Shown: positions 2,909-24,825 of the stretch, in pieces
Position numbering within the stretch: the stretch's first letter is position 1
Layout of the letters: the number at the start of each line of letters is the position of its first letter
Source: Rubricoccus marinus
GTDB taxonomy: Bacteria > Bacteroidota > Rhodothermia > Rhodothermales > Rubricoccaceae
Assembly: GCF_002257665.1 (NCBI RefSeq)
Contig: NZ_MQWB01000001.1
Coordinates: forward strand, 3,297,119 to 3,361,118
Direction: 5' to 3'
DNA: 64,000 nt
Position numbers and translations under genes: made by a program
Notes under the pieces: generated by a model
The model's database searches: none
The model's input: only the letters and a program-made list of their open reading frames with translations
What the model was told of the DNA's origin: nothing

Positions 2909-2982
2909 GGGCGGTTAGCTCAGTTGGTTAGAGCACTTCGTTTACACCGAAGGGGTCCGGGGTTCGAGTCCCTGACCGCCCA
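2909..2982 (+). tRNA. tRNA-Val (anticodon TAC), integration target
   Basis: Acceptor GGGCGGT pairs with ACCGCCC (2975-2981), discriminator A. D-arm AGCTCAGTTGGTTAGAGC; anticodon stem CTTCG/CGAAG with loop TTTACAC (anticodon TAC); T-arm GGTTCGAGTCC. The last bases, from 2971, recur at 24811, so a mobile element entered here and left the tRNA gene intact. Confidence 0.95.
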
Positions 2983-2985
2983 CAC
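2971..2985 (+). other. attL core
   Basis: CCTGACCGCCCACAC, identical to 24811-24825 in the same orientation. It covers the 3' acceptor strand of tRNA-Val plus three bases beyond it. Flanking bases differ on both sides, so 15 bp is the full identity. Confidence 0.85.
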
Positions 2986-3030: not shown

Positions 3031-3051
3031 GGTACAACATGGGTACAACAA
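3031..3051 (+). repeat. Left copy of the 21-bp end repeat (putative integrase arm site)
   Basis: GGTACAACATGGGTACAACA plus one A, itself two direct GGTACAACA units separated by TG. The same 21 bp occur at 24676-24696 in the same orientation. It starts 46 bp inside the attL core, a position typical for arm-type binding sites of tyrosine integrases. Confidence 0.7.
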
Positions 3052-9005: not shown

Positions 9006-9959
9006 ATGCCCAAGACCAAGACCACCCCGAAGAAGACCACACGGGCCACGCCAGAGGCCTCTGGCGTCACCGCCGCGGACGCCACAGCCGCGCGCCTCTT
9101 CGCCTCGCTCCCGCCCGCGGCTCAGGTCGTCTTCCGCCGCATGGCCGACGCCGCCGAGAAGGGCGAGCACCCGCACCGGTTCGTCGGCGAGGCCGCGGCC
9201 GACCGCATCCGCCTCGCGGGCGAGAGCCCCCCCGAGGTCGTCGCGCACGCGCTCGCCTGGATCGTCGAGACGCCGGAGGTGCCCGCGTGGCTCGCCGAGC
9301 CGTTCGACGCTGCGGGCGCCACCGGCGGCGCCGTCGATGCGTGGCGCCTCGCCGGCGGCACCGACGACGACGCCCCGGTCGGCCCCCTCCTCTGCGCCCT
9401 CGCCGAGCTCGCGCAGACCGCGCCTGCGGCCGACGTGTACGCCGAGTCCTACGTCCCGTCGTCTCAGCCGTCGCGCCCGCGGCTCGGCTTCGTGCCCGGC
9501 GCCTCGCACCCCGGCAAGGGCGCGAGCGAGTGGGAGACGAAGCATTGGGAGCGCAGGCGAGACGCGGCGAAGAAAGCGGGGATGACCGAGGAGCGCCGGT
9601 GCGCGCTCACCGACACCGTCTTCCACATCCCGTTCGGGTCGCCGGTCCCCTCGCTGCTCTTCGACACCGAAGACGAGACGGCGTACAACCGCGAGGACCC
9701 GTCGGCGCCCTTGCGCAGGCGCCGCGCCTACACCGTCCACCCCGCCGTCTTCGCCGCCGGTGCCGAGGCCGTCGCGCGGGCGTTCTGGCAGCACGCGCAC
9801 GAGCTGGCCTACGAGGTCGGGGAGAAGCTCGCGGCCGCCGCCGAGACCGTCGCGATGGCGCGGCTGCTCGCCAAGCCCGACTCCATCGGGACCGAGCCGC
9901 CGGGGTCGGCCTACGTGACGACGGCGGGCGCGCCGACGGGCTGGTACGCCCCGGCGTGA
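9006..9959 (+). CDS. Hypothetical protein of the element
   Basis: 317 residues, no known family. A Lys/Thr-rich start (MPKTKTTPKKTTRATPEASGV) precedes helical stretches (DATAARLFASLPPAAQVVFRRMADAAEKG) and a central part with aromatic and charged residues (ASEWETKHWERRRDAAKKAGMTEERRCALTDTVFHIPFG). The tail is Ala/Glu-rich (EVGEKLAAAAETVAMARLLAKP). The chain reads without membrane segments or signal peptide. The preceding 192 bp (8814-9005) show no recognisable signal. It could be an element-specific DNA-metabolism or structural protein; I see no evidence to decide. Confidence 0.6.
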   Translation: MPKTKTTPKKTTRATPEASGVTAADATAARLFASLPPAAQVVFRRMADAAEKGEHPHRFVGEAAADRIRLAGESPPEVVAHALAWIVETPEVPAWLAEPFDAAGATGGAVDAWRLAGGTDDDAPVGPLLCALAELAQTAPAADVYAESYVPSSQPSRPRLGFVPGASHPGKGASEWETKHWERRRDAAKKAGMTEERRCALTDTVFHIPFGSPVPSLLFDTEDETAYNREDPSAPLRRRRAYTVHPAVFAAGAEAVARAFWQHAHELAYEVGEKLAAAAETVAMARLLAKPDSIGTEPPGSAYVTTAGAPTGWYAPA

Positions 9960-10249
9960 GCGCTGCAACAGCGAGGGCGGTCCGGGTGCGCGCGTGCCCG
10001 GACTGCCGCCGCCCCGCCAGAGGCCGCGACCGCTGCCCGGACTGCTACTTCCGCCGACTGAGAGAAGCGCTCCGCGCCAAAAGAGGGCGCCACGTTCCCC
10101 GATGCCACTGCGCCCCGCTGGACACGTTCTGGCGGGGCGCTACTGTATCTGCCTACCTCCATCCCGTGCCTTTCGCAGAGGCAAGCGCTGCTGTGCCTGA
10201 TCAATCTGGCGTATGCCCTCTCCTCTGCATGTTCTTAAACAAGAGATAG
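9956..10249 (+). CDS. Small CxxC zinc-ribbon-like protein
   Basis: 97 residues from a GTG that overlaps the stop of the preceding gene (GTGA at 9956-9959). Two CPDC motifs about 13 residues apart (ACPDCRRPARGRDRCPDCYFRRL) plus a later RCHC form a likely zinc-binding knuckle followed by a basic helix (REALRAKRGRHV). Many phages carry such small zinc proteins of unknown role. Its 3' end runs 49 bp into the convergent PIN-like gene, which lowers confidence in the C-terminal part. Confidence 0.45.
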   Translation: MSAATARAVRVRACPDCRRPARGRDRCPDCYFRRLREALRAKRGRHVPRCHCAPLDTFWRGATVSAYLHPVPFAEASAAVPDQSGVCPLLCMFLNKR

Positions 10250-11517
10250 TTCGTAAACGCTTTGTTGTACTCCGCTTCCAGGCCTGCAATGTCTTCCTGT
10301 GACACATCAGGATCTTCTTTCGCCCTTTTTAGCCTAATGGCGAGTGTGAGAAGCGAGGAACTCGCCGTTGATGAACTCCTAAACGCTCGATCTATCACTG
10401 TCGACCAAGCGTCCATCGCGGCCTCCGACTCCGGATCTGACTTGGGCTCTGGTTCAGAGCTTTGTCTTAGCTCTACGACGACCGTCTCTTCTGCGTCCAT
10501 CATCTCGACGTAATCGTCAAGCGTGAGTAGATGAAGCGTGCCCCCACCAGTTGTCGTCCTGTATTCCTCGGTTAGCTCGTCCCGTGGCATGACAGGTCCG
10601 TCATCGCCCTTGTCTGCCCACCAATTGGGCTTGGTATCGTTCGTCACGAAGACCGTGTCCGCCGCGCCGTCTGCTGAGCGGGACTCTGCCGCTTGCAGGA
10701 GCGCCTTCCAGACGAGGTAATCCCCGAGCTCGTTGCCGTTGCGCTTGTTCAGGTCCTTCTTGTCCCCGAGCGGCGGGCGTGTGAGCCTCGTCTTAGCCTC
10801 CTTCTCGACCTCGTCGTACGTGTCCTTCAGCTTCTCTACAGAGCTTTCATCCGCGAAGGACTGAACGATCGCCATCACGGGGTCCTTCTCGCGAATCACG
10901 ACCTCGGCGTCCTCGATGAGCTCGTCCAGAGATTCCTGAGCTTGCTTCGCTGCTTGCTTGAGCGCCTCGTCGGCGTCTCTCAGGCGCTCAATCGCATCAT
11001 TCGCGGGACCGGCTAGGGCGAAAGGGGCGAAGGTGTCCGGTAGGTGCAAGTCCTGATCCCCCTTCGCCCTTCCCGCTTTCGACTTCAGCGTGCGCAGCGC
11101 CTCCAACTCGCCCGCGAGCTTCTCGGCCCTGTTGCTGAGGTACTCCCTCAAGGAGTGCTCAGGCACCACGAGCCGCCCGGCCTCGTGCGCCTGGACGAAC
11201 AGCCCCGCGATGGCGTTCTGCGTCTGGGCCGTCTTGCCGTATAGCGCGAGGAGGACGTTCGCGTCCAGGACGAGCAGCCCGGTCTCCAGCGCGCCCTGAA
11301 GCTCTCCGCGCTCAAAGTTGAGCGTGTCCAGGGGGGAAGGGAATGCGTCTTCGTAGGGGTGAGTGGACGGCAAGGCTCTAGCGTTCGTGGCAGGGACAAA
11401 CAGCAGATCTGGCCCCCCGTTCCTCGCTGCTGTGCGGTGCCGCCAGAGGCGGTACGTGCGGAGCCTCTGGCGTGAGGCCTGTGCGAGCGCGGCAGACCGT
11501 AGACTCCACTCCTCCAC
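10201..11517 (-). CDS. PIN-like domain nuclease (PIN_8 type)
   Basis: The domain starts at LLVLDANVLLALYG with the first catalytic Asp. It continues with VVPEHSLREYLSNR (acidic residue and Asn), a helical insert, then GDYLVWKALLQAA and VFVTNDTKPNWW carrying the later acidic residues. This is the layout of the PIN-like family PF18476, predicted RNases found in defence and abortive-infection loci. The middle (IERLRDADEALKQAAKQAQESLDELIEDAEVVI) is a coiled coil. The start is uncertain: ATG 11604 overlaps the divergent gene, GTG 11517 avoids it, and TTG 11373 would place the domain close to the N-terminus as in relatives. The coding part has no CCTCTGGCG repeat, so it is probably imported cargo. 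Confidence 0.7.
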   Translation of the reverse strand: MEEWSLRSAALAQASRQRLRTYRLWRHRTAARNGGPDLLFVPATNARALPSTHPYEDAFPSPLDTLNFERGELQGALETGLLVLDANVLLALYGKTAQTQNAIAGLFVQAHEAGRLVVPEHSLREYLSNRAEKLAGELEALRTLKSKAGRAKGDQDLHLPDTFAPFALAGPANDAIERLRDADEALKQAAKQAQESLDELIEDAEVVIREKDPVMAIVQSFADESSVEKLKDTYDEVEKEAKTRLTRPPLGDKKDLNKRNGNELGDYLVWKALLQAAESRSADGAADTVFVTNDTKPNWWADKGDDGPVMPRDELTEEYRTTTGGGTLHLLTLDDYVEMMDAEETVVVELRQSSEPEPKSDPESEAAMDAWSTVIDRAFRSSSTASSSLLTLAIRLKRAKEDPDVSQEDIAGLEAEYNKAFTNYLLFKNMQRRGHTPD

Positions 11518-11535
11518 CAGAAAGAGGCTTCTCTG

Positions 11536-12042
11536 ATGAATCGGCTTCTGCTCTCCGCACTCTGCCTCACCGCGCTGGCGCTTCCCACGCTCGCTCATGC
11601 CCAAGACACCTGCGCGCCGCCGGCGGATTCTCTCGCGGCGTGGCTAGAGGAATACCGATCCGTCTACAGGACCCTTGAGGTCGCGACCGAGCTCACGCCG
11701 CGCAACTCGGAACAGGGAAAAGGCCTACAGGAGCTGTCGGACCAAGTCGGGAAAGCGCTCGCCGTCCTATCGGAAATGGAACCGCTCGTGAGGATAGCAG
11801 AGGTCACGACAGAGCCGGCCGTGCGCGAAATCGCATGGGAGGCGTACTACATCAGCGCGGAGTTTATCGGCGTCGTCGGCCTTGGGCCGCGCACCGCTGA
11901 GGATGGCGGCTCGTTCATGTCAGCGTTCAACCGGACGGTGCGCGAGACCAACCGGATCCAAGAACGTGTAGAACGCGAGCACGAGGCGTCGTGGGCTCCA
12001 TGCGCCGACAGGGGCGCCTTCGGGCGCCACCGAAACCGCTGA
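11536..12042 (+). CDS. Secreted hypothetical protein
   Basis: 168 residues. A textbook signal peptide (MNRLLLSALCLTALALPTLAHA, cleavage before QDTC) precedes a small helical domain (SLAAWLEEYRSVYRTLEVATEL, GLQELSDQVGKALAVLSEMEPL). Only two Cys appear in the mature part, one at each end, and could pair. Function unknown. It is divergent from the PIN-like gene with a short gap and, like it, has no CCTCTGGCG repeat, so the two may have arrived together. A periplasmic protein inside a phage-like element suggests a lysogenic-conversion or surface-exclusion role, which is only inference. Confidence 0.65.
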   Translation: MNRLLLSALCLTALALPTLAHAQDTCAPPADSLAAWLEEYRSVYRTLEVATELTPRNSEQGKGLQELSDQVGKALAVLSEMEPLVRIAEVTTEPAVREIAWEAYYISAEFIGVVGLGPRTAEDGGSFMSAFNRTVRETNRIQERVEREHEASWAPCADRGAFGRHRNR

Positions 12043-12182: not shown

Positions 12183-12683
12183 CTACGCAGCCCCAAACCT
12201 CAACGCGAACGTCCCGAGGTCGCCGAGCCACCCGCCGTCCTTAAAGACGACGGCGCGCCAGAGGCCGGGGCCCTCTTGCTCCTCGAATGCGCCGCGCGCG
12301 AAGACGGCCCCCACGTGCTCGGTGTTCTCGCGGCGGTACCTCTCCAGAGGCTCGTGCCGCACCTCAATGATGTCGGAGGCGTGGCGATCGTGACCGAGCA
12401 CGAGGGCGCGGTACCAGACGAGGCAGCTCTCGGGTCCGAGCTCGATGCCGTGGCCCCCACTATAGCTGACAGGCGGACCGACTCCAGACGCGATAGGCTC
12501 GGAGACGAGCCTATCGACGACTGCGACCGCGAGGCGGAGCGCTCGCTCGGCGTGGGGATGGTGGGTGCAGGAGGAAGCGGTGAGGTCGGGGACCATTCGG
12601 GTACCTAGGGGTGTGAGCCAGGCGTAAGGCAACCCTCGTGCCATTCCGGTGGGGGTTCCCTGGAGGGCACCCATGCAGAACAT
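12183..12683 (-). CDS. Hypothetical protein, last gene of the long operon
   Basis: Up to 166 residues, no family recognised. Three possible ATGs: 12683 (inside the 17-bp palindrome), 12644 and 12596. The conserved-looking part starts with the last (MVPDLTASSCTHHPHAERALRLAVAVVDRLV) and contains several Cys and His (SSCTHHPH, ESCLVWYRALVLGHDRH). It is separated from the gene upstream by 135 bp filled with iterons. The leftward operon ends here. Position behind a tape-measure gene would suit a minor tail component; the sequence does not show it. Confidence 0.5.
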   Translation of the reverse strand: MFCMGALQGTPTGMARGLPYAWLTPLGTRMVPDLTASSCTHHPHAERALRLAVAVVDRLVSEPIASGVGPPVSYSGGHGIELGPESCLVWYRALVLGHDRHASDIIEVRHEPLERYRRENTEHVGAVFARGAFEEQEGPGLWRAVVFKDGGWLGDLGTFALRFGAA

Positions 12684-12686
12684 GGG
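12670..12686. repeat. 17-bp palindrome, copy A
   Basis: CCCATG-CAGAA-CATGGG. The same 17 bp in opposite orientation are at 19101-19117. Copy A borders the left edge of iteron array A. Confidence 0.75.
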
Positions 12687-12693
12687 CGCGATC

Positions 12694-12840
12694 TACCGTC
12701 CCTACCGTCCGCCCCGTCTCAGCCCCCCTCAAAACGAAGCCTCTGGCGCTGCAAACGCCGGTTCTGAGGCGGACGGTCGCCCAAACCCCTACCGTCCGCG
12801 ACCGTCCGCCAAAGGCCCCTACCGTCCGCCTACCGTCCGC
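12694..12840. repeat. Iteron array A (9-bp unit ACCGTCCGC)
   Basis: Units at about 12695 (degenerate), 12704, 12770 (reverse), 12791, 12801, 12821 and 12832. The array spans the 3' end of the 12819-13349 gene and the gap after it. The same unit forms array B 6 kb away. Confidence 0.75.
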
Positions 12841-13349
12841 CCGTCGGTACCCCGCTCGCCAACGACCCGCGCCCGCGCACGCACGCTCGCGCTGCCGCCG
12901 ATGGGCGCCGTCGCGACGACCCCCTCGACGTCGCGGAGCGTCGCGCTGAGGATCGTGTCCGCCAGAGCAGAGCGGAGCCACGCCACGGCCAAGCGGTCGG
13001 GTAGCGCCTCTGGCGGCGCGAGGAACGGCCGACCGTCGCCACCGGAGACGAGCGGGATCTCGGCGCCAGAGGCCCGCAGCGTCGGCAGCTCCGCCGCGTT
13101 CAGCGCGCGGAACACCTCGGCCTCGGCGCACGCCTCGTCGGGCGAGAGGCCGAGCACACGCGCCGCGGCCATCGACGGGGCGAGCGCGTCCGAGGGCTCG
13201 ACGACGTACGCGGCCGAGAGCGCGGCGTAGCGGCCCAGCCGGTGCAAACGGCGCCTCTGGCGGCGCGAGGCCTCGGCGCGGCGTGCGCGGCGGTAGAGGG
13301 CGACGGAGAGCGCTGCCAGAGGCGCCGAGATGAGGGGGAGCACTGTCAC
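12819..13349 (-). CDS. Hypothetical protein behind the tape-measure gene
   Basis: About 176 residues, GTG start overlapping the tape-measure stop (GTGA). The N-terminus VTVLPLISAPLAALSVALYRRARR is a likely membrane helix with a basic stop-transfer, followed by RRQRRRLHRLGRYAALSAAYVVEPSDALAPSM and an Ala/Leu-rich region. The last residues (GERGTDGRTVGGR) are written by iterons of array A, so the C-terminus doubles as a DNA signal. In tailed phages the gene after the tape measure usually encodes a distal tail protein; nothing in this sequence resembles one, so its function stays unknown. Confidence 0.55.
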   Translation of the reverse strand: MTVLPLISAPLAALSVALYRRARRAEASRRQRRRLHRLGRYAALSAAYVVEPSDALAPSMAAARVLGLSPDEACAEAEVFRALNAAELPTLRASGAEIPLVSGGDGRPFLAPPEALPDRLAVAWLRSALADTILSATLRDVEGVVATAPIGGSASVRARARVVGERGTDGRTVGGR

Positions 13350-16252
13350 AGTCCTGCGGAGGACGTGGGGCGGCCACCGGAACCCATCCGCCCGGCGGCG
13401 CCCGAGCCGCGCGTCCGCGCCTGCTGGTCCTCGCGGACGCGGATCTCGGAGATCAGCCGGTCCAACCCGTGGCCGTTGACCTCGACGGTGATCTCGGGAG
13501 AGGCCACGTTCGGCGCGGCGACGTTGACCGTCGTGCCCCCCGGCTGGATGCCCCGGCCGGCGTACCCGTTCGGGTTGGGACCTACTGGCGGGGCGCCTTG
13601 ACCCGCGACGTAGAGCCCGGCGGTGCCGGAGGCCTCGGAGCCGCTGGCGCCAGAGGCCTCGGACGCGCTTGGGATCTTCGGCGCGGAGTAGGACTGCCCG
13701 CCGATGGCGGCGATCTGGACCGCGCCCGCGGCGCCCGCGAGCCCCGCCGCGATGAGCCCGGCTGGGACGAGGGGCTTCGTGGTCGCTAGCGCGTTCAGGA
13801 TCGCGAGGGCGGTGTCGATCTTCGCCGTCCGCAGCGCGGCGGCCTTCTGGACCTCGAACGCCCTTTCGGCCCGCGCGGCGTCGCCCGCAGCGCGCTCTTC
13901 GGCCTCCTTCACGGCGTTCCTCGACGCCTGGATCGACTCCTCCGTCGCGTCGGTGCCCACCCGCTCGGCCTCCCGCCTCGCCTCGCCGACCGCCTGCGCG
14001 CTCTCCCTCGCTTCGGCGTCGGCCTCGCGTGCCTTGTTCGCCGCGTGCTGCGCCAGCAACCCCGTCACCTCCGAGACGACCGCGACGGCCTGCTGGGCCT
14101 GGTCTGAGACGAGCTGGATGTCGGCCGCGAGCGAGGCCCCCCAGTCGTGACCTGCTACCGCGGCGGCGTCGAACTCGTCTCCCAGCGCGCGGACGTCGTC
14201 GGCGAGGCCCGCGAGCCTCCGGCGCTCCTCGTCGGAGGTCGCGGCCCCGTAGGCCTCCCCGAGCCGCTGCAGCGCGGCCTCCGCCTGGTCCACCGACGCG
14301 ACAAGGTCGCTCTGGATGGCGAGGATCACGCGCTGCAGGGAGGCGTCGGCATCGCGCGTGTCGACCTCGATGGGAAGCTGGCGCACGCCGCCCACGCCGG
14401 CGCCGCGGACGGCCTCGAAGCCGCTGGCGAGCGCGCCGTTCTCCTCTCCGTTCCGGAGGGCGTCCCGTGCGCCGGTGGGGTCGCCTTCTGAGAGCCGCCT
14501 CTGGCGGCGCATCGCGAGGTCGAGGATCCTCTCGGAGGCGTCCGCCATCCGCTCGGTCTCGACGCGCTGACGGGCGATCCGCTCGGCGAGGTCGGTCTCC
14601 ACCAGGACCCGGTTCCGGGCCGCGGCGGCCCTCCGCTCCGCCTCGCTGCCGAGCAGCTCGGTCTCCAGAGTGATCCCCTCGATCACGCCGAGGTTGACGA
14701 GGTCGAGCGCGTTTGCCTCGCGTTTGGCCTCGACGTATGCCTTCGCGGCGTCGAGCCGGAGCTTGTCGGCGGCGGCGCCGACCTTCTCGGCCGCCAGCGG
14801 GCCCAGCTTCGCTTTCAGCGCGTCGAGCGAGGCGGCGAGGCGTGATGCCGTGACGAGGATGCCGTCGAGCTTCTCCTCGTAGTCCGCCGCGGCGTCCGAC
14901 GCCTCGCGCATGGCGCCAGAGGCCTTCCCCCCAGCGTCCCCGAGCGAGTCGCCCGCGGCGTCTGCCGACTCCCCGAGGTCGTTCAGCGAGTCCTCGAGCT
15001 CGCCGATCTCGCCCTCGGCCTCGTCCAGCCCCGTCACCTCCGGGAGGTTCAGCTCCGGCACGAGCCCGCGCCCGAGGATGTCGCCGAGCTCGTCGAGCCG
15101 CTCGTTGATCCGCGTCAGCGAGACGTGTGCCTCCTTGAACCCCGCCTTGTCGCCGGTCCACTTGTTCCACGACTTGCTCAGGCCCTCGATGGCCCACTGC
15201 GCGCGGAGCGCCCACCGCTCCAGGCTCAGCAGGCTCCAGAGCGCGGCCTCCAGCGCCATGCGGAAGACGCCGAGCGAGCTCCCCTCGCCCCCTCCGACGC
15301 GGTCAAGCGTGCGCCCGAGGCTGAGCGCGGTCTTGGCCACCTGCAGGAGTTGGTCGACGTAGACCCACGCCTGCTTCGCCGCGTCGGCGATGGCCGTGCC
15401 GGTCCGCCGCACCATCTGCACGAAGCCCTCGTCCCGCGCGATGGCGGTGAGCTTGCTCGCGAGCCGTCCGAGCACGCCGCGGAGCCCGTCGCCGAGCGCC
15501 TCCTTGAGGTCGCCGACGGCGTTCTCCATCTGGCGGAACTCGTCGACCGTGGCCTCGGCGAGGCCGCCCGCGTTGGCGGCGATGATCTCGCTCAAGAGGC
15601 GGACCTTGTCCAGCCCCTCGGCGCTGTTAAACGCCGCCTTCTGCGTCTCGGTCAGCGAGACGCCGACCTCGGTGAGCGCGCCGGCGCCGGAGACGAGCGC
15701 GCGGCCCATCAGCATGGCGACCTGGTTGAGGTCGCCGATGGGCTTGCCCGCCTTCTCGGCGAACGCCGCGAGGTCCACGAGCCCTTGCGTGAGGAGCCCG
15801 GCGCCCTCGGGTCCGGCGGCCTCCTTGAACGAGAGGAGCACGGACTGCGCCGAGGTGATGAGCTCGTCGCCGAAGTTGCTGTTGTCCTGCGTCTCGGCCG
15901 CGAGGTCGGAGAGCGACCGCCGCGCGGCCTCCAGGCCTCCGGCGGCCTCCAGCGCGGCGGGTTCGAGGTTCTTCAGCGACTGCTCCAGGCGGCGGTCCGC
16001 GATCTGCTGGATGCCGGCGAGCTTGACGGACTCAGAGAGGAGTCGAAAGCCCGCGCGGAGGGCGTTTACGGCGCCCTGCACGCTGACGTAGCCCGCGGCG
16101 AGTCCGACGAGCGCCTTCTTCAGCCCGCCCATCCGTTTCTGTGAGGTGTCGGCGGCAGACCCGACGGAGAGCACGCCTGTTCGGGCGGCCTGGGTGCCTT
16201 TGAGGACGCCTCTGGCGTCGAGGTCGAGCATGACGACCACGCGGTTCTTCAT
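13346..16252 (-). CDS. Phage tail tape-measure-like protein
   Basis: 968 residues from the ATG at 16252. The N-terminal part (LKGTQAARTGVLSVGSAADTSQKRMGGLKKALVGLAAGYVSVQGAVNALRAGF) and AAETQDNSNFGDELITSAQSVLLSFKEA are typical of TP901-type tape-measure proteins, with long helical and coiled-coil stretches after. The C-terminal hydrophobic Ala/Gly segment (TALAILNALATTKPLVPAGLIAAGLAGAAGAVQIAAIGGQ) is the usual tape-measure ending. These proteins fill the tail tube and set its length. Unusually, no tail tube, sheath or baseplate gene is visible nearby, and the gene sits in the same operon as the primase. It starts within the stop of the upstream gene (ATGA). Confidence 0.85.
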   Translation of the reverse strand: MKNRVVVMLDLDARGVLKGTQAARTGVLSVGSAADTSQKRMGGLKKALVGLAAGYVSVQGAVNALRAGFRLLSESVKLAGIQQIADRRLEQSLKNLEPAALEAAGGLEAARRSLSDLAAETQDNSNFGDELITSAQSVLLSFKEAAGPEGAGLLTQGLVDLAAFAEKAGKPIGDLNQVAMLMGRALVSGAGALTEVGVSLTETQKAAFNSAEGLDKVRLLSEIIAANAGGLAEATVDEFRQMENAVGDLKEALGDGLRGVLGRLASKLTAIARDEGFVQMVRRTGTAIADAAKQAWVYVDQLLQVAKTALSLGRTLDRVGGGEGSSLGVFRMALEAALWSLLSLERWALRAQWAIEGLSKSWNKWTGDKAGFKEAHVSLTRINERLDELGDILGRGLVPELNLPEVTGLDEAEGEIGELEDSLNDLGESADAAGDSLGDAGGKASGAMREASDAAADYEEKLDGILVTASRLAASLDALKAKLGPLAAEKVGAAADKLRLDAAKAYVEAKREANALDLVNLGVIEGITLETELLGSEAERRAAAARNRVLVETDLAERIARQRVETERMADASERILDLAMRRQRRLSEGDPTGARDALRNGEENGALASGFEAVRGAGVGGVRQLPIEVDTRDADASLQRVILAIQSDLVASVDQAEAALQRLGEAYGAATSDEERRRLAGLADDVRALGDEFDAAAVAGHDWGASLAADIQLVSDQAQQAVAVVSEVTGLLAQHAANKAREADAEARESAQAVGEARREAERVGTDATEESIQASRNAVKEAEERAAGDAARAERAFEVQKAAALRTAKIDTALAILNALATTKPLVPAGLIAAGLAGAAGAVQIAAIGGQSYSAPKIPSASEASGASGSEASGTAGLYVAGQGAPPVGPNPNGYAGRGIQPGGTTVNVAAPNVASPEITVEVNGHGLDRLISEIRVREDQQARTRGSGAAGRMGSGGRPTSSAGL

Positions 16253-16938
16253 GGGTAGGGGGTGCTGGGTTTGGCGGTGCGGCGCTCGCGGACCGATGCC
16301 GCGACGCCGCCGGTGTAGAGCCACGCGAGCGCGTCGATGAGCGGCGCGCGCATGAGGTCGAGGTAGGCCGGGGCGTCGAGGCCGCCGAGCGCGAGGTCGA
16401 GGCCCGGTGCGGATCCGGTCGAGGCGGGCGTGAGCGTGCGGTACATGAGGTCCCCGGCCTCGCCAGAGGCGGCCTGCGCGTCGGCGGCGGCGAGGGCGAG
16501 CCACGCCTCGACGGCGCCAGAGGCCCACGCCCGCGCCGTCTCGGCCGGGCACTCCGCGAGTGCTGAGAGCACGCCGTCGGCGCCTGCGTAGCAGACCGGG
16601 AGCGCGCGGGCGAGCTCGTCGCGGGTGGCGCAGTCGAGGACCGAGGGGCTGTCGCCAGAGGGGCCGCTTTCTGGCCTCGCCATCGCGAGCGGGTCGGTCG
16701 CGAACGGGTGCCAGCGGACGGTGCCCTCGGCGTAGCCGTAGGAGCCGAGCGCGTGGGCGAGACGGCGGATGCGGCCGAGCGACGGCGCTTCTGGCGCGAG
16801 CGCGAACGGTCCGGAGGGGTCGGCGAGACGGCGTGCCCATTTGCGGAGACGGCGGCGCTCGCGGAAGCCGGGACGCTTGGCGGCCTCTGGCGCGGTTGCG
16901 GCGCGGGTCTCGTCGTGGGGTGAGTCGGCGGCCATCAT
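16249..16938 (-). CDS. Hypothetical protein upstream of tape measure
   Basis: 229 residues from ATG 16938, overlapping the preceding stop (ATGA) and itself overlapping the tape-measure start. Sequence is Ala/Arg/Pro-rich with helical stretches (RRRLRKWARRLADPS, RIRRLAHALGSYGYAEGTV, DAPAYLDLMRAPLIDALAWLYTGG). In siphoviruses the two genes before the tape measure encode tail assembly chaperones, often joined by a programmed frameshift. Position and tight overlap suit that role, but I could not identify a slippery site or homologous motif, so the link is contextual only. Confidence 0.55.
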   Translation of the reverse strand: MMAADSPHDETRAATAPEAAKRPGFRERRRLRKWARRLADPSGPFALAPEAPSLGRIRRLAHALGSYGYAEGTVRWHPFATDPLAMARPESGPSGDSPSVLDCATRDELARALPVCYAGADGVLSALAECPAETARAWASGAVEAWLALAAADAQAASGEAGDLMYRTLTPASTGSAPGLDLALGGLDAPAYLDLMRAPLIDALAWLYTGGVAASVRERRTAKPSTPYP

Positions 16939-17453
16939 GCGAGGGGGGTGCGGCGCTCGCGCGCCAGGCGGGCGCCCTCGACGTAGCCCACGGCGAGGAG
17001 CACGTGGGCGAGCGCGATCTGGAGAAGGCTCCCCTCTGGCGCTCGCGCGAAGTCGCGCCGGAGCCGCGGCACGTCGGCCGGTAGCTCTGGAGGCTCTGGC
17101 GCGAGGTGGGGCCACGCGCTGAGATCTTCGGGCTGGTACCCTTCCGGGTGGAGCGCGTCGAGTGCCTCGGACCAGGCAGAGAGCGCAGCATCGGCGGCCT
17201 CTGGCCACGGGTCGGCGCCAGAGACCCGGCACTCGTCGCGATAGGCGTGGAGCGCCTGCTCTATCGCGGCCGTCCGGGCGTCGCGCGCGGTGTCCGTCAT
17301 GGCCTCCTGAGCGTCCAATTCGTCGGCGCAGACGTCGGCGGCGGGGTCGCCCGTCGCGCGCGTTGCGTCGGCGAAGAAGAGCATCCACGCGGATCGGTGC
17401 CGGTCGCGCGCGGCGTCCTCGATGCGGGAGAGTCGGGTGGATGTACTAGGCAT
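16935..17453 (-). CDS. Hypothetical protein, possible tail-assembly partner
   Basis: 172 residues from ATG 17453 (MPSTSTRLSRIEDAARDRHRS), overlapping the preceding gene by 8 bp and the following by 4. The protein is acidic and helical (ADVCADELDAQEAMTDTARDARTAAIEQALHAYRDECRV), with a C-terminal LLQIALAHVLLAVGYVEGARLARERR helix. No known domain. Tight coupling suggests equal expression with the two genes after it; see the entry at 16249 for the chaperone possibility. Confidence 0.55.
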   Translation of the reverse strand: MPSTSTRLSRIEDAARDRHRSAWMLFFADATRATGDPAADVCADELDAQEAMTDTARDARTAAIEQALHAYRDECRVSGADPWPEAADAALSAWSEALDALHPEGYQPEDLSAWPHLAPEPPELPADVPRLRRDFARAPEGSLLQIALAHVLLAVGYVEGARLARERRTPLA

Positions 17454-17715
17454 CGGTAGAGGGGGATGCAGCCTCACAGCGCTCGCGGTCGCGGCGGTCA
17501 GCGAGGCGCTCGGTGAGCGGCGGCGAGATGCGGACACAGCCCCAGACGACAGGACGCGGGGACGCGGCCTCGTCCATCGCGAGGCGGGTCTCGACGGCGG
17601 GCTCTTCGGTGCCGTCGGCGTTCACGGTATAGAAGTGGAGCACAGGGTCGGAGGGCGAGGAGACCTCGGCGGCGGCGCGTTCGGCGCGGGCGAGGCGGGA
17701 GCGGATGGACGGCAT
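17446..17715 (-). CDS. Small hypothetical protein
   Basis: 89 residues (MPSIRSRLARAERAAAEVSSPSDPVLHFYTVNADGTEEPAVETRL). A basic helix leads to a beta-rich middle and a charged C-terminus. Found in the middle of the coupled operon, two bp after the upstream stop and overlapping the next start. No function recognised. Confidence 0.5.
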   Translation of the reverse strand: MPSIRSRLARAERAAAEVSSPSDPVLHFYTVNADGTEEPAVETRLAMDEAASPRPVVWGCVRISPPLTERLADRRDRERCEAASPSTDA

Positions 17716-17717
17716 GG

Positions 17718-18092
17718 TCAGGCGGATGCGGGGGAAGACGTGAAGCCTCTGGCGGTGCCGCCTCTGGCGCCAGAGGCCTCGGCGGTGCGAGAGGCGGCAC
17801 CCGTTGCAGGCGTCTCGGCGGCGGCCTCTAACGACGCCTCCAGAGCGGCGAGACGGGCCTCCAGCTCACCGGTCTCGATGAGGCGGGCGTACGCGCCGGA
17901 GGCCTGTGTGAGCGCGTGGACGGCTCGGAGCACGCCGTCGATGTTGCCGCGCTCGGCGGAGTCCATCAGCACGGCCTCGGCGGCTTCGACGGCGCGCCAG
18001 AGGCGGCCACGCATCCCGCTAAGGGTCCCTTTCGTGCGCCGCTGTCGCTTCGCGAGGCGGGCGAGATGGGTGTTGTTGCGATCTACGGGCAT
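17718..18092 (-). CDS. Small helical protein, possible DNA-packaging/HTH type
   Basis: 124 residues from ATG 18092. The first 80 are helical and basic (NNTHLARLAKRQRRTKGTLSGMRGRLWRAVEAAEAVLMDSA, VHALTQASGAYARLIETGELEARLAALE), reminiscent in shape of small terminase-like or DNA-binding phage proteins; I cannot assign it more closely. The C-terminal 45 residues are Ala/Gly/Thr-rich and contain EASGARGG, encoded by one perfect copy of the 16-bp palindrome at 17761-17776, one of only two such copies seen inside a gene. Confidence 0.55.
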   Translation of the reverse strand: MPVDRNNTHLARLAKRQRRTKGTLSGMRGRLWRAVEAAEAVLMDSAERGNIDGVLRAVHALTQASGAYARLIETGELEARLAALEASLEAAAETPATGAASRTAEASGARGGTARGFTSSPASA

Positions 18093-18703
18093 CTTTGACG
18101 GGGCTGTCGAGGGGATCCCCCCCCTCTCTGTGTGGATGGCGCGCGGCTGGACGTGTCCGCGGACACCTTTGAGGGCGTTGGCGTGCGAGCCTCTGGCGGC
18201 GGCGACGTGCGACCGAAGACGAGGCGGGCGGCGTCGCGGCCGTGCTCGTTCGTGCGCGCCTCCCACCCAGCCAGGCGGCGGAGCGTGTCGGCGTCCCACT
18301 TGGCCACGCGCTTCGGCTCGACGAGCGCGACCGCCCAGCCGTGCGAGGCGCAGAGGTCGGCGTAGAAGCCCGTCAGGAGGTCGGTGTGCCCCACGGCACG
18401 CGCGATGCGGTCTCGCTCGCCTCGGTTCGCGTTCCGGTTGCGCGCGTAGATGGGGAGCGGGCGCGAGTCCTCGATCCAGACGCCGCGCACCAAGACGGCG
18501 CCTGCAGCGTGCTCCCGCGCGAGGGCGTCGAGGTGCCGCACCGTCGCCAGAGGCCCAGCGGACGCGACGGACACGAGGCGGCCATCGGCACCGTCGGCGA
18601 GGGCGAGGCCTGTTGTGGTACCAGGGTCTATGCCCAGGTACAGAACGCGGGGCGGGTTCGGTGGCAGCATCTCAGAAGGGGGCATCGGTGGAGAGTCGGA
18701 CAT
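18083..18703 (-). CDS. RuvC-like (RNase H fold) junction-resolving nuclease
   Basis: About 206 residues. YLGIDPGTTTGLAL supplies the first catalytic Asp of the RNase H fold; VWIEDSRPL gives the central acidic residue; WEARTNEHGRDAARLVFG matches the terminal HxxDA of RuvC-type resolvases. It would cut branched DNA made during replication or recombination, before packaging in phages. ATGs at 18703, 18685 and 18670 are possible; the first overlaps the primase by 32 bp, the last starts just behind its stop. The C-terminal 40 residues are low complexity. Its place straight after the primase fits a DNA-processing unit. Confidence 0.75.
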   Translation of the reverse strand: MSDSPPMPPSEMLPPNPPRVLYLGIDPGTTTGLALADGADGRLVSVASAGPLATVRHLDALAREHAAGAVLVRGVWIEDSRPLPIYARNRNANRGERDRIARAVGHTDLLTGFYADLCASHGWAVALVEPKRVAKWDADTLRRLAGWEARTNEHGRDAARLVFGRTSPPPEARTPTPSKVSADTSSRAPSTQRGGGSPRQPRQRCP

Positions 18704-21488
18704 CCGAGAGCGGGAACGATGTCGGCATCCCGTCCACGTCGACCGAGACGCGCCCGGCCTCTGGCGCAGCGGAGACGGTCCCATTCCCTTGCGGCGTGCT
18801 GACGACGTCGCCTGGCGCGAGCGGCGCGACAGCGGACCCCTTGGAAGGAGACCGTCGGATACCGTCCCGACCGTCCGCACCGTCCGCTTGTCCGTTTCCT
18901 GCGCGTACGGGGCGATAATTGGCGGACGGTTGGGCGGACGGTCGGACGGTCGGAGGCGGACGGTTGGGAGCGTCGGCGGACGGTTGCGGACGGTCGGCGA
19001 ATCCTATACCGTCCGCCTCGAAATCAACGCTCGCGCCGTCGCCAGAGGCGATTTCGGAAGCGTCCGGGACGGAGGCGGACGGTGCGGACGGTTGTGTGCG
19101 CCCATGTTCTGCATGGGCATCCTCGACCTGCCTCAGCACCCAGAGGCGCGAGCGGTCCTTCCCGCCGCGGGCGCGCTCGCTGTCGATGCCGACGGCGCGG
19201 AGCGGAGGCGCGGAGCGGGTCACGGCCGACGAGAGCGCGCGCGGCGTGCGGGGCCAGCCGTGTGGCATCCGGCGCTTCTCGTCCTCCTCGCGGTGGAGCA
19301 GCGTGAGCCGGTCCAGCAGTTCGCCGGACGTGCCGGTGAAGAAGACCGCCCCGGCCTCTGGCGCGGCGGCGTCGCGGAGCGCGCGGATGAGCGTGGCCAC
19401 AGGGTCCGCGTCGAGGGCGGCCTCGACCAGCTCGTCTTTCGCGCTGTCGAAGGCGGACAGGAACGTGCCAGGCCCGAACGGGAGGCCCCCGGCGTCTTCG
19501 CACGCGATCACCCAGCGGGCGGCGTCGGCGAGGCGTGGCAGACGATCCGGATGCGTGTGGGGCAGGCGCTCCAGCCCGAGTGCCGCGGCGTCGAGGAGCG
19601 CGCCGAGGATGCGAGGATGCGCCTCCTGAAACGCGGAGTCCAGCGCCGACTCGGTGCGCCTGTTCTCGTCGGGGATGCGCTCCAGCGTGACGGCAAGCGT
19701 CCGCTCGGCGAGGTCGGGTCGGCTCACCGCGTCGCCGATGGCCGTCAGGATCTGGCGGCTCGTCGTGTTGAAGATCTGCTCCTCGTCGTCGGTGTGGAGC
19801 ATACGCGTCGCGTAGCCGCCTCCGGTGGCGAGCCTGCACATCACGTCCGAAAGCGCGGGCGAGATCGTGCTCACGTTGTCGTAGACGAGCACGGCCGAGG
19901 ACTGCGCCGAGATGAACGCCTCTCGCTCGTTGCGCGGGAGCGAGCGGAGCGCGGCGACGTTGGGGTCGATGACGGAGCGGATGATCCGCGCCGCCGTGCT
20001 CTTGCCCGTCCCCTGCTCTCCTGAGAGGCCGAGGATGGGGTACGGGCCTCGGCCGCGGAGCGCGATGAGCAGCCAAGCGGTGAGGAGCACAGACGCCGTC
20101 GGCGTCGCGTTGACGAACTCGCCCAACTCGCTCACTTCTCCACCGGAGACGGGCTCTGGCAACGGGAGCGCCCCGCTGCGGCGTACGAAGCGGACGGGGC
20201 AGGCCTCTGGCGCGATGATGGACCAGCCTCCGGGGCGGGTCTCGACCACGCGGCCGGACTCGTCGCCGAGGTCGAGGTAGAGCCTCAGCACGCCGCCCTC
20301 GTCTTCGGCCTCGGCCACGCGGACGGCCGTCCGGTGCTCGGACCCCTCGTAGAGCGCGACGCCGGTGAGCACGCCGAGCGCGTCCTCGGTCGCCTGCCCG
20401 CCGGGCGTGCGCCCCTCCTCCTCGTAGTAGAGCCGGTGGAGGTAGGACTTCACGCGGGTCGAGCGCAGCGGCAGCGATTCCCGGCCTCCCGCGGGGTTGG
20501 GCAGCGTGGCGTAGGGCTTCCCCTCGGCGTCGTGCCAGAGGTCGAGCCGCGCGCGGGCGATCTCCACCAGGCCCGTCGACGCGGACGGCGGGCGGCCTTT
20601 CTTCTCCTTCGGCTCCTCTGAGGGCTCGTCGCGCGCCAGAGGCGAGTCCGCAAACGTGGGGGCGTCTCGCACGAGGGCCTTGAGCGCATCCGCCGTGCCG
20701 CCAGAGGCCAGCCAGTCGGACACGTCTCCCTTGACGGGCATCGGCGCGCCCGTGGCGAGCGCGGAGAGGTCCGGGACGACGACCGAGGCCGCGGTCCCGG
20801 AGAGCGACGCCGCGACGGTTCGGGCGTGCGTGCGGCCCGTCGCGTCGTTGTCCGGGATCAGGACCACGTGCGCCGACGCCAGAGGCGCCGTGTGCTCCTC
20901 GCCCCACTTCCCTGCCCCGCCGTCGTTGCACGTCGCGACGAAGCCGAGGTCCGCGAGACGGTCGGCGTCCTTCTCGCCCTCGACCACGAACACGCGGCGG
21001 CCGTCGGCGACGGCTTGGAGGACCTCGGGCAGGCGGTAGAGTGGACGTTCGGTGCCGTCGAGGTTGTAGAGCCACCGCTGAGAGCCCGCGCCCCGACGGC
21101 GGACGGTGAACGTCTTGGCGTGGCCACGGGCCGGATGCCCTCGCTTCGGCTCCTTGCGCACCTTCTCGAAAAGCGTCGCGCCAGAGGCGTCGGTGTATAC
21201 GTGCCGGGCCGTGACCTCGTGGCCGTCGCCCTTCGGGTCCCACTTGGGTACCTCATCTTCGCGGTCGTAGAAGTCGGCGGGCTGCAGGCCGAGCGCGCCC
21301 GCGATGGCGCCGAAGTCGCATCCGCGCTGGCACTTGACGAGCGTGCGGCCGTCGTTGCCTTGCTGCAGCGTGAGGCTCGGGTTGGTGTCGTCGTGAGACG
21401 GGCACCGCAGCAGCACGTTGGAGCCGGAGCGGCGCCCTGGCTTCCCTGTCTTGGCCTCAATGAGGGCTTGGATCTCGGGTGTTTTCAT
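18672..21488 (-). CDS. Primase-helicase (CHC2 zinc finger, TOPRIM, AAA helicase)
   Basis: 938 residues from the ATG at 21488, which overlaps the preceding stop (ATGA). Residues ~28-60 hold a CHC2 zinc finger (CPSHDD...CQRGC). A TOPRIM domain follows near 165-250 (VFVVEGEKDADRL, LIPDNDATG, GDVSDWL). A P-loop helicase region lies near 490-620, with Walker A GLSGEQGTGKST and Walker B VLVYDNV. The architecture matches replication proteins of P4-like satellites and integrative elements: it can prime and unwind at its own origin. Its 3' coding part (residues ~800-890, PQPSADAPNRPPPTVRPSAQ) is low complexity and is written by iteron array B, so the gene carries a probable origin inside itself. Confidence 0.9.
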   Translation of the reverse strand: MKTPEIQALIEAKTGKPGRRSGSNVLLRCPSHDDTNPSLTLQQGNDGRTLVKCQRGCDFGAIAGALGLQPADFYDREDEVPKWDPKGDGHEVTARHVYTDASGATLFEKVRKEPKRGHPARGHAKTFTVRRRGAGSQRWLYNLDGTERPLYRLPEVLQAVADGRRVFVVEGEKDADRLADLGFVATCNDGGAGKWGEEHTAPLASAHVVLIPDNDATGRTHARTVAASLSGTAASVVVPDLSALATGAPMPVKGDVSDWLASGGTADALKALVRDAPTFADSPLARDEPSEEPKEKKGRPPSASTGLVEIARARLDLWHDAEGKPYATLPNPAGGRESLPLRSTRVKSYLHRLYYEEEGRTPGGQATEDALGVLTGVALYEGSEHRTAVRVAEAEDEGGVLRLYLDLGDESGRVVETRPGGWSIIAPEACPVRFVRRSGALPLPEPVSGGEVSELGEFVNATPTASVLLTAWLLIALRGRGPYPILGLSGEQGTGKSTAARIIRSVIDPNVAALRSLPRNEREAFISAQSSAVLVYDNVSTISPALSDVMCRLATGGGYATRMLHTDDEEQIFNTTSRQILTAIGDAVSRPDLAERTLAVTLERIPDENRRTESALDSAFQEAHPRILGALLDAAALGLERLPHTHPDRLPRLADAARWVIACEDAGGLPFGPGTFLSAFDSAKDELVEAALDADPVATLIRALRDAAAPEAGAVFFTGTSGELLDRLTLLHREEDEKRRMPHGWPRTPRALSSAVTRSAPPLRAVGIDSERARGGKDRSRLWVLRQVEDAHAEHGRTQPSAPSASVPDASEIASGDGASVDFEADGIGFADRPQPSADAPNRPPPTVRPSAQPSANYRPVRAGNGQADGADGRDGIRRSPSKGSAVAPLAPGDVVSTPQGNGTVSAAPEAGRVSVDVDGMPTSFPLSDVRLSTDAPF
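18861..19092. repeat. Iteron array B (9-bp unit ACCGTCCGC / GCGGACGGT)
   Basis: Forward units near 18861 (degenerate), 18870, 18879 and 19008. Reverse units at 18922, 18934, 18943 (8 of 9), 18956, 18976, 18986, 19075 and 19084. AT-richer patches (GATAATTGG at 18914, CCTATACC near 19003) lie inside. The array sits within the 3' coding part of the primase-helicase gene. Confidence 0.8.
19100..19118. repeat. 17-bp palindrome, copy B
   Basis: GCCCATGTTCTGCATGGGC: seven-base arms around TTCTG. The inner 17 bp are the exact reverse complement of copy A at 12670. It borders the right edge of array B, mirror-wise to copy A. Confidence 0.75.
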
Positions 21489-21826
21489 GCCACCCACCCG
21501 AGAGAGTCGTCGGCGCGCGCGGCCTCTATGGCCGCGCGGCGCGCGTGGGCCTCCGTCGCGGGGTCGGCGAAGCGGACGCCTGCCGTCCCACGAAGGAACG
21601 GCAGGGCCACGCGCCCACCTCGGACGAGGGCGGAGATGACGATGGGGCCGACAGTGATGTCGACCTCGATGACGCGGACGCGCCGCGAGAGCGAGAACGC
21701 GCCCGTTGCGACGGCGGAGATGGCGGGCACCTGTTGCGGGCTAGGAGCCTCTGGCGGTCGCGTCGCCAGAGGCGGGCGTCCGAACAAGCGGCACGCCGCG
21801 GCTCCGGTTGTGGAGGCGTCTCTCAT
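21485..21826 (-). CDS. Small protein upstream of primase, SpoVG-like region
   Basis: 113 residues, ATG 21826. The N-terminal 45 residues are Ala/Pro-rich; the core (RVRVIEVDITVGPIVISALVRGGRVALPFLRGTAGVRFADPATEAHARRAAIEAAR) resembles the beta-sheet and final helix of SpoVG-type nucleic-acid-binding proteins found in many mobile elements. The resemblance is by eye. Coupled on both sides by ATGA overlaps. Confidence 0.5.
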   Translation of the reverse strand: MRDASTTGAAACRLFGRPPLATRPPEAPSPQQVPAISAVATGAFSLSRRVRVIEVDITVGPIVISALVRGGRVALPFLRGTAGVRFADPATEAHARRAAIEAARADDSLGWVA

Positions 21827-22171: not shown

Positions 22172-22483
22172 TTACGGGGTTGGCGGACGGGCCGGGACGT
22201 GCCCGGCGTCCATGAACGCGAAGACCTCGGACGTCCGGTAGCGAATGGTCTGCCCCTGCTTGACATAGGGGAGCCGCCTCTCGCTCCGGAGGTGCCGGAG
22301 CTGCCGCTTCGAGAGGCCCGTCTCGCGCGTGACCTCGGCGTCGGTCATGAACTCCCCCAGCCTCGAGCGGCGGAGGATCTCTGGCAGCGTAGCGAGGAGG
22401 TCGCTCGCTGTGGACTTCCCGATCTCAGCGCCGATCTCGGCGACGGACGCGGGGATGAGCGCGATGGAATCGGGGAACTGCAT
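22172..22483 (-). CDS. Excisionase-like HTH_17 (MerR-type) DNA-binding protein
   Basis: 103 residues from ATG 22483. The C-terminal 55 residues are a helix-turn-helix of excisionase type: EFMTDAEVTRETGLSKRQLRHLRSERRLPYVKQGQTIRYRTSEVFAFMDAG, with the classic VTRETGLSKRQLRHLR recognition region and the IRYR wing. Such proteins direct excision with the integrase or activate element genes. An upstream ATG (22525) would add 14 residues. It precedes the primase operon and follows the integrase pair, the usual place of an Xis/AlpA regulator in P4-like elements. Confidence 0.8.
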   Translation of the reverse strand: MQFPDSIALIPASVAEIGAEIGKSTASDLLATLPEILRRSRLGEFMTDAEVTRETGLSKRQLRHLRSERRLPYVKQGQTIRYRTSEVFAFMDAGHVPARPPTP

Positions 22484-22663
22484 GGCGAAGGGGCGTGGCT
22501 CTCGTTCACCATTATACGCCCTCATTCACAACATCCCGGCCTCATTCTGTCGCCGTTTGGCGTTTCCTCCGATCCGCGCCGGAGGCCCGGACGAGGAGGA
22601 CAGAGGCCCGAAATAGAGCCCTGCAGGGCCGAAACAAGCCCGACCATTTCTGAACCTACCGCG

Positions 22664-23416
22664 TCAGCCCTTCGGATTCCGCGGTGACCGGAGCACGAAG
22701 GTGAGATCGAGGGGCAGCTCGAACTCTCCCTCCACCATCCGCCGGCGCGCTGTGGCGACCGAGACGCTCATCTCCTCCGCGACGGCCTCCACGAGAGCCG
22801 TGGGGTAGTGCGGCCCCTTGCCGCGGCGCGTCCTCAGCCGGTAGTCCAAGCGGTTCGGTTGGCCCTCGGCCGTCAGGCGCGTCGCGATCCGGGCCGCGAG
22901 CTCGTGAGCCGGGAGCCGCTTGGGTAGCCCGCCGAGGATCGAGAGATCGGCCCCGGTCTTGAACCTCCTGTGGCGAGCCGGGAGGGGGTTCTCAGGGTCA
23001 ATGAAGTAGGCGGCGACGTACCTCGCTGCGTTCTCGCGTACGGTCGGATGCCAACGCTCAGGCGAGGGGGCGATGTCGGCCTCCGTCAGCCCGACATCTT
23101 CGAATCCTTCTCTCATCTCACGGTCCCCACTCGGCGTTGCGAGCGTGTAGGCGCCGGATTTGTTGTAGAGCGCCCGGTGCACCGCGAGCGAGGCCTCGTG
23201 GCTCTGCTTCCACCACGCGGTGAAGCCGTCAATGTGCCCCTCCGCCATCGCGCCCCTCGCCTCCTCGACTGCCACAGGGATGAACGCCGCGATGGGCTCA
23301 AGCGGTACGCGACCGAGGGAGATCTCGTTGTAGAGGAACGCCCCTGTGAAGGCGAACAGCTCCTTTCGCAGGCGAGAGGACAGGTGGTCCAGCGGTGCAG
23401 GGGCGTCTTTACTCAT
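22664..23416 (-). CDS. Hypothetical protein coupled to integrase
   Basis: 250 residues, starting 8 bp inside the integrase 3' end. N-terminal helices (LRKELFAFTGAFLYNEISLG), an aromatic middle (HIDGFTAWWKQSHEASLAVHRALYN) and a C-terminal AVAEEMSVSVATARRRMVEGEF that looks like a helix-turn-helix. Function unknown; the overlap suggests it is co-expressed with the integrase, perhaps as a recombination directionality or control protein. Mostly free of the CCTCTGGCG repeat. The 138 bp after it (22526-22663) show no clear signal. Confidence 0.6.
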   Translation of the reverse strand: MSKDAPAPLDHLSSRLRKELFAFTGAFLYNEISLGRVPLEPIAAFIPVAVEEARGAMAEGHIDGFTAWWKQSHEASLAVHRALYNKSGAYTLATPSGDREMREGFEDVGLTEADIAPSPERWHPTVRENAARYVAAYFIDPENPLPARHRRFKTGADLSILGGLPKRLPAHELAARIATRLTAEGQPNRLDYRLRTRRGKGPHYPTALVEAVAEEMSVSVATARRRMVEGEFELPLDLTFVLRSPRNPKG

Positions 23417-24650
23417 CGGTCCAGAGGGAGTCGGTCAGGGAATCCACCGCGTCGCGGTCGAAGGAGGAGAGGTAGGCCTGCGTCGTCTTGAGGTCGGTGT
23501 GCCCGAGCGCTTTCGAGACGGCGTAGAGGTCGCCCGACTGGCGGGCGAAGTCGGCGAAGCTGTGGCGCGCGACGTGGGAGGAGAGCCCGGTCGGGTCGAG
23601 GCCGGCTAGGCGCGCGAGCTCCTTGAGGAGCTTGTTCACTTGCGTCGACGCCGAGGCGATGCGGCGGCGGACGCCTACGGGGTCCGCGTCGTCGCCGGGC
23701 TTCAGCAGCGGGACGAGGTAGCGGCCGTAGCGGGCGCGGCCTCTGGCGTCGCGGGCCTCCACGCCAGAGGCAAGCCGACGCGCGACGCGGAGCGCGGCGG
23801 GCGGGAGCCGGACCGACTGCGCGTGCTCGGTCTTCATCATGGTATAGGTGAGGCGGTCGCCGGCGACGTTCTCGGGAGTCAGCCGCAGCGCGTCCGAGAT
23901 GCGGACGCCGGCGCCGTAGTACTGCAGCGCGAAGAGGTCGCGCGTGGCCGCGAGCCGGGTGCCGTCTGCGACGCCGTCGGCGGGCCCGAGCGCGAGGAGC
24001 CTCTGCACGTCGCCAGGCGAGAGGCGACGGCGGGAGACTGGCGCCGACTTCGGCATCTTGAAGCGGAGGAACGGGTCGCCGCCGGGCTCCAGGTCCCCCT
24101 CGCGGATCGCAAGGCGGGCGAGGCGCCGGAGCCGCTCCAGCTCCTTGCGAACGGTGTTCGTCCCGTTCCCCTCTTCCGTGCGCATGTAGGCTGCGAAGGC
24201 GTCGAGGCGGTCCGGCGTGAGCGCGCCCCACGTGAGCGGCCAGCCGAGCGCGTCGGAGAGCTTCCGCCTCAGCGTCCGGTACTTCTTCCCCTCCCAGACC
24301 TGCGCGCCGCGGGCGAGGCGTTCGAGGTAGCGGTCGAAGAAGTCCGAGAGCGAGGCCGCGCCCGCCCCGTCGATGGCGGCGATCACGGCCTCGGCGGAGT
24401 CGGCCGAGAGCGCGGCCGTCTGCGCCCTGTTGAGGAGGTCGGAGAGCGTGGCGTTGAACGCCGTGGAGAGCGCGTGCCCGCCGCGGACCTTCTTCTTGAC
24501 GTCGTTCCAGTCGGCGGGCTTCACCTCGACGCCGGTGCCGGTGTAGAAGCGGGAGCGGCGGGCGTGCGTCACGCGGATCCACACAGGTGCCTCCCCGTTG
24601 GGCCGGGTCTTCGAGGTGCGGTGGACGAGGGAGACGGACGGCGCGGCCAT
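23409..24650 (-). CDS. Tyrosine recombinase/integrase
   Basis: 413 residues from ATG 24650. The N-terminal arm-binding domain has the Bacteroidetes form (VSLVHRTSKTRPNGEAPVWIRVTHARRSRFYTGTGVEVKPADWN), then a SAM-like core-binding domain (FFDRYLERLARG...TNTVRKELERLRRL) and the catalytic domain. Catalytic residues: Arg in YYGAGVRISDALRL, His/Arg in SSHVARHSFADFAR, His in ALGHTDLKTTQAYL, Tyr in the same segment. It integrates and excises the element at tRNA-Val. The gene reads inward from the right end, 160 bp from attR, with one arm-type repeat directly upstream of its start, where Int binding could also repress its promoter. Confidence 0.95.
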   Translation of the reverse strand: MAAPSVSLVHRTSKTRPNGEAPVWIRVTHARRSRFYTGTGVEVKPADWNDVKKKVRGGHALSTAFNATLSDLLNRAQTAALSADSAEAVIAAIDGAGAASLSDFFDRYLERLARGAQVWEGKKYRTLRRKLSDALGWPLTWGALTPDRLDAFAAYMRTEEGNGTNTVRKELERLRRLARLAIREGDLEPGGDPFLRFKMPKSAPVSRRRLSPGDVQRLLALGPADGVADGTRLAATRDLFALQYYGAGVRISDALRLTPENVAGDRLTYTMMKTEHAQSVRLPPAALRVARRLASGVEARDARGRARYGRYLVPLLKPGDDADPVGVRRRIASASTQVNKLLKELARLAGLDPTGLSSHVARHSFADFARQSGDLYAVSKALGHTDLKTTQAYLSSFDRDAVDSLTDSLWTDE

Positions 24651-24675
24651 CGGGGGCGGGTCACGCCAGAGGCCT

Positions 24676-24696
24676 GGTACAACATGGGTACAACAA
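24676..24696 (+). repeat. Right copy of the 21-bp end repeat
   Basis: GGTACAACATGGGTACAACA plus A, identical to 3031-3051. It lies 26 bp upstream of the integrase start and 114 bp inside attR. Confidence 0.7.
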
Positions 24697-24810: not shown

Positions 24811-24825
24811 CCTGACCGCCCACAC
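24811..24825 (+). other. attR core
   Basis: CCTGACCGCCCACAC, duplicating the 3' end of tRNA-Val. It marks the right border; 24826 onward is the original chromosome. Confidence 0.85.

Follow-up and report, generated by a model that had tools for sequence, protein, structure and literature searches.

Does this locus carry a replication origin divided between two iteron arrays, in the manner of satellite P4, and which protein would read the iterons? The window, i.e. the whole 64-kb stretch of DNA analysed, contains an integrated element of ~21.85 kb, in which a preliminary description had noted two arrays of the same 9-bp unit (A and B), each flanked by the same palindrome.

Iteron arrays and palindromes of the integrated element

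The element is inserted at a tRNA-Val gene and bounded by 15-bp direct repeats CCTGACCGCCCACAC; the copy at 24811-24825 consists of 13 bp of the tRNA-Val 3' end and the two next bases. The 21-bp direct repeat GGTACAACATGGGTACAACAA found just inside both ends is likely to be an arm-type site of the integrase (Table 1). The part of the element's ORFs that was scanned showed no recognisable genes for portal, protease, capsid or terminase, and the element may be a satellite, plasmid-like or a decayed prophage. The product of the 176-aa gene, whose 3' end reaches into array A, gave no match in the family search. The 968-aa product was considered as a tape measure protein from its likeness by eye and rejected, since it had no Pfam, PHROG or NCBIfam match. 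The 18-bp palindrome GCCTCTGGCGCCAGAGGC, present e.g. at 2879-2896 of the window, has 873 copies in the whole genome, 0 copies in a relative of the same genus and 0-4 in other members of the family; it is a lineage-specific, HIP1-like over-represented palindrome.

Table 1 Features of the element and its integration site (window positions)
Feature	Position	Strand	Remarks
tRNA-Val, integration site	2909-2983		
Integrated element, ~21.85 kb	2971-24825	.	Flanking direct repeats of 15 bp, CCTGACCGCCCACAC (2971-2985, 24811-24825)
21-bp direct repeat GGTACAACATGGGTACAACAA	3031-3051 and 24676-24696	+ (3031-3051)	Just inside both element ends; likely integrase arm-type site
PIN-like domain protein	10201-11604		Cargo region; PF18476, E 5.7e-30
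Palindrome A, CCCATGCAGAACATGGG	12670-12686	+	Exact match
Array A	12695-12841	+	7 ACCGTCC cores, 6 full ACCGTCCGC
Predicted gene, 176 aa	12819-13349	-	Reading frame, GC by codon position
Predicted gene, 968 aa	13346-16252	-	Reading frame, GC by codon position
RuvC-like Holliday junction resolvase	18083-18670	-	phrog_1770, E 1.3e-11
Primase-helicase	18672-21497	-	phrog_6088, E 1.6e-30
Array B	18861-19092	-	12 ACCGTCC cores, 10 full 9-mers; within primase-helicase coding sequence
Palindrome B	19101-19117	-	Exact match; same 17 bp as palindrome A, opposite orientation
C-terminal winged-helix-like region	19149-19397	-	Model residues ~400-482, covered by SaPI5 Rep match
HTH excisionase-type regulator	22172-22525	-	phrog_66, E 6.1e-6; TIGR01764 sub-threshold
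Tyrosine integrase	23409-24656	-	PF00589, E 2e-14; start codon inferred

The unit ACCGTCCGC occurs 24 times in the window versus 2.34 times expected, a number matched in none of 100 dinucleotide shuffles. In Markov simulations (20 x 64 kb), the largest 240-bp cluster of any 9-mer contained 3 or 4 copies. Elsewhere in the 4.43-Mb genome, the spaced-pair pattern of the unit was found as isolated pairs only, and arrays A and B are therefore the only arrays found in the genome. The common unit of the preliminary description was thus confirmed, and so were the location of array B inside the primase-helicase gene and the 17-bp palindrome flanking both arrays in opposite orientation. The palindrome, CCCATGN5CATGGG, has exactly two sites in the 4.43 Mb, those at arrays A and B. 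It does not seem to be a motif of the family: CCCATGCAGAACATGGG was met in just two other viral contigs, without ACCGTCC arrays, which corresponds to chance level.

The claim that the whole arrangement is symmetric holds for the outer ends of the arrays, where an inverted 45-bp module (palindrome, 8 nt, unit and unit with a 9-bp period) is common to A and B with 38/45 positions identical. It was overstated for the interior, since the orientation of the units beyond these modules is mixed (++-++++ in array A and +++------+-- in array B). The units form sub-groups. The lowest GC content found, 57.5% per 40 bp, corresponds to the 8th percentile of the element, and there is no strongly AT-rich segment between the units.

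The primase-helicase and its plasmid homologues

The primase-helicase consists of a TOPRIM primase, a SaPI/D5-type helicase, a C-terminal winged helix and a disordered tail ending in DAPF; array B occupies the 3' coding end of the gene, directly after the winged-helix region. Searches starting from the sequence gave little information on the helicase: no Pfam family covered it (weak P-loop matches only), a sequence-based search of solved structures yielded nothing but P-loop hits, e.g. ABC transporters, and a search of genome contigs with the single helicase protein yielded no relative. The AlphaFold2 model of the helicase and C-terminal region (482 residues, alignment of 41 sequences) reached a mean pLDDT of 91.6 and a pTM of 0.91. 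In the PDB, it was matched best by 7ola, the primase-helicase of SaPI5 (Foldseek E 3.4e-9; Z 20.7 for model residues 1-480, with 370 aligned residues and an rmsd of 5.3), and next by the poxvirus D5/E5 proteins. Judged by this model, the protein is a D5/SF3-type initiator helicase with a C-terminal DNA-binding domain, related by fold at 10% identity. We propose the winged-helix-like region as the putative reader of the iterons.

The PF ending was found in 15 of the 69 helicases collected, mostly after acidic residues, and in 8 of ~1756 other long ORFs of the same loci (a count from which the helicases were subtracted by hand). Most of the PF-ending helicases come from Bacteroidota and are therefore not independent events. 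The single-stranded DNA-binding protein (SSB) of the host ends in DDDLPF, and the xPF end of these primase-helicases may be an SSB-like tail in function as well as in appearance.

Homologues of the primase-helicase also occur on circular plasmids. The Streptomyces circular theta plasmid pFP11 encodes a full-length homologue (35% identity, E 9e-68) and carries nine copies of GGGACGCA, eight of them 555-800 bp past the stop codon of this gene. Similarly, 10-11 copies of a unit lie 475-740 bp past the stop on two further circular plasmids of Streptomyces. The 3' zones of the homologues on pH6Ac, M. bullatum p3, pM44602 and pSTA7437.02 were devoid of an array. For RepA of pFP11, binding to the iterons of the plasmid is reported (PMC3583192), and this RepA is likely to be the product of the ORF homologous to the primase-helicase. 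pFP11 also contains a tandem repeat CTGAAGAC with 16 copies in 226 bp (L181, 274-500), located away from the replication gene.

Arrays in related elements

In 14 elements of the first-examined class, including that of the window, the helicase gene was inspected at its 3' end, and most of them have arrays of short repeats in the last 300 nt of the gene, straddling the stop or past it. The unit differs in each element, e.g. GTGACGTTT in G044, GGCGGACAA in G024, GGTGACAGC in G019a and GTGCGCCGG in G204; the repeats of G077 are weak and below four exact copies. G204 is a circular contig of 14.9 kb (127-bp exact terminal overlap) with the array directly after the helicase stop. The 3' zone of the helicase gene of Microbacterium phage Zeta1847 has no array, just a 3-copy repeat. 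In G024a, a second and different array ATCGTCAGATC with ~9 copies lies 330-580 bp past the helicase stop (L037, ~1170-1430; 21172-21427 of the joined G024a region), and it is missing from the near-identical G024b.

In the wider set of 69 non-redundant proteins with 67 testable loci, an array, defined as at least four copies of one 8-mer between -400 and +300 of the helicase stop, was present in 29/67 loci versus 182/5746 control windows (3.2%). The position of array B is thus conserved in relatives. Iterons with different sequences, as they were contrasted with those of P4, are indeed the rule insofar as each element has a unit of its own. The units are nevertheless not unrelated: the core CGTC is contained in 20/30 of them (a list that takes in P4 and pFP11), compared with ~5% of random 8-mers in an approximate random model.

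A natural variation of the unit was found in G015a, G015b and G019b (L044-L047, L042-L043), in which a primase of the same kind is combined with another type of helicase. The cores of these helicases are ~97% identical, and the units CCAGAGGGCCAC, CCAGATGATCAC and CCAGATGGCCAC have swapped centres, all copies being changed together. The stretch presumed to be the recognition helix, placed by eye, differs along with the unit. These three sequences suggest a co-evolution of reader and iteron and offer natural material for studies of iteron reading by winged helices and of the splitting of incompatibility groups.

Paired arrays, for which the preliminary description had suggested a search among relatives, do recur and are the exception. 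A distal cluster of at least three copies of the element's own unit, at least 600 bp away, was detected in 4 of the 29 array-bearing elements (0/29 with reversed 8-mers as controls), which is a lower bound since many contigs are short. Apart from the window element, these are L114 (7+9 copies of one unit, the 7-copy distal array 8.7 kb upstream), L090 (4+4 copies of one unit, the distal four 5.7 kb upstream) and, weakly, L095 with 3 distal copies; L101 has a second array ~0.8 kb away. The second array of L114 and that of L090 are intergenic and follow the integrase gene; like capsid-forming PICIs, these two elements have genes for phage portal and capsid proteins. The viral search with the L114 protein returned its own contig only. 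No palindrome common to the paired arrays was found in the other relatives with a second array, and the relatives found include none that is closer and has array A.

A candidate bipartite origin and known replicons

We consider it fairly probable that the element is a replicon of the SaPI/P4 type whose arrays bind its own primase-helicase, array B being the core origin and array A either an additional origin or an enhancer that acts in cis. The primase-helicase would bind both arrays and initiate replication of the presumably excised circular element; its C-terminal winged helix would read the ACCGTCC(GC) unit, and helicase hexamers may load themselves at array B, a mechanism already put forward for the Rep protein of SaPI. 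We take array B, whose position is conserved in the family, as the core, since relatives mostly have the equivalent of this array alone. Array A, 6 kb off, might then be a second origin or an enhancer or handcuffing site that pairs with B by looping, on the model of P4 ori and crr. The duplicated 45-bp module suggests that a defined complex forms at each outer end. In favour of this reading are the position of arrays in 29/67 loci, the units sharing CGTC, the SaPI5 fold, pFP11, the circular G204, the P4 layout and the paired relatives; DNA binding, origin activity, the cooperation of A with B and the choice of the firing array are inferred. What counts against it is the single array of most relatives and the lack of a strongly AT-rich melting region, a segment always present in the PICI origins of E. 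coli (PMC6092414).

The single arrays also speak for another explanation, namely that array B alone is the origin, and that array A arose from it by duplication or transplantation and has no function of its own. Only the 3'-end array is present in 25 of the 29 array-bearing elements, and a duplication would leave just such a block as the 45 bp (38/45) shared by A and B. This explanation seems unlikely to us, however, as 7 cores of array A are still intact (6 of them in full units) and arrays are also paired in P4 and in L114 and L090, where the second one is intergenic and follows the integrase gene.

In iteron plasmids, the iterons frequently have a part in copy-number control and gene expression too, and the arrays might accordingly be operators or partition/incompatibility sites (autoregulation, centromere) instead of replication starts. 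Several points argue against such a role: array B adjoins no promoter but is located where the helicase gene has its 3' end, the element has no recognisable ParB-like gene, and the precedents, SaPI Rep and the Streptomyces plasmids, bind such arrays as origins. We regard this role as improbable. The palindromes were also considered as ends of a 6.4-kb transposon or invertible segment, since inverted 17-bp repeats bound the region 12670-19117 with the arrays just inside. We rejected this as hardly credible: one end would lie in the primase-helicase frame, neither a transposase between the palindromes nor a target duplication beside them was seen, and in relatives the array is present although a second end is missing.

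Beyond the candidate bipartite origin of this element, a broader generalization is conceivable, which we put forward tentatively and would not call probable. Mobile replicons of one family, found as integrative elements, satellites and plasmids, may have the origin written into their own initiator gene, at its 3' end, so that the same few hundred bases serve as disordered linker and as iterons. In Bacteroidota the linker would have xPF as its SSB-like tail, by which the replisome of the host could be recruited, and in a minority of the elements a second array with the same unit would create a bipartite origin, P4 crr occupying the ancestral origin position.

Among known systems, SaPI5 provides the best structural match, which spans the helicase and the C-terminal domain (7ola), and in SaPI/PICI elements, too, the helicase gene has iterons at its 3' end (PMC7581432, PMC6092414). 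In contrast to SaPI/PICI, where the iterons are downstream, array B is within the coding sequence; the element studied here also differs in its TOPRIM primase, in the second array 6 kb away and in having no clear AT-rich core. Plasmid pFP11 is similar in its full-length homologue of the primase-helicase with a downstream iteron array, whereas this array is beyond the stop, the PrimPol-type primase is encoded by a separate gene and only one array is present. Iterons inside the coding sequence of an initiator gene, as in array B, are found in gene O of phage lambda; unlike the primase-helicase, O is itself no helicase and recruits that of the host, and lambda has a single array.

As regards the layout in two arrays, the analogy to P4 was borne out. 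In P4 (NC_001609), crr consists of two 120-bp repeats with the type-1 iterons TGTTCACC 46-345 bp beyond the alpha stop, and the type-1 repeats of ori are annotated at 9310-9413, 4.7 kb away; array B is thus positioned like crr and array A like ori. In both cases one iteron occurs at two places, with one array adjoining the helicase gene at its 3' end. P4 differs in that its second array is on the other side of the helicase gene and its ori has type-2 repeats in addition; its annotation lists no shared palindrome. The possible relation to P4 alpha was not upheld: the primase-helicase showed no sequence relation to it (hhalign probability 5.7, Walker A region only), and the closest solved structure is that from SaPI5. 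The element is P4-like in design and, judged by sequence, not a member of the P4 family. SaPI origins, P4 crr/ori and the iterons of Streptomyces plasmids are linked by their position, SaPI and the plasmids also by the fold or sequence of the initiator, and the paired arrays described here offer a ready test of why P4 needs crr as a second site.
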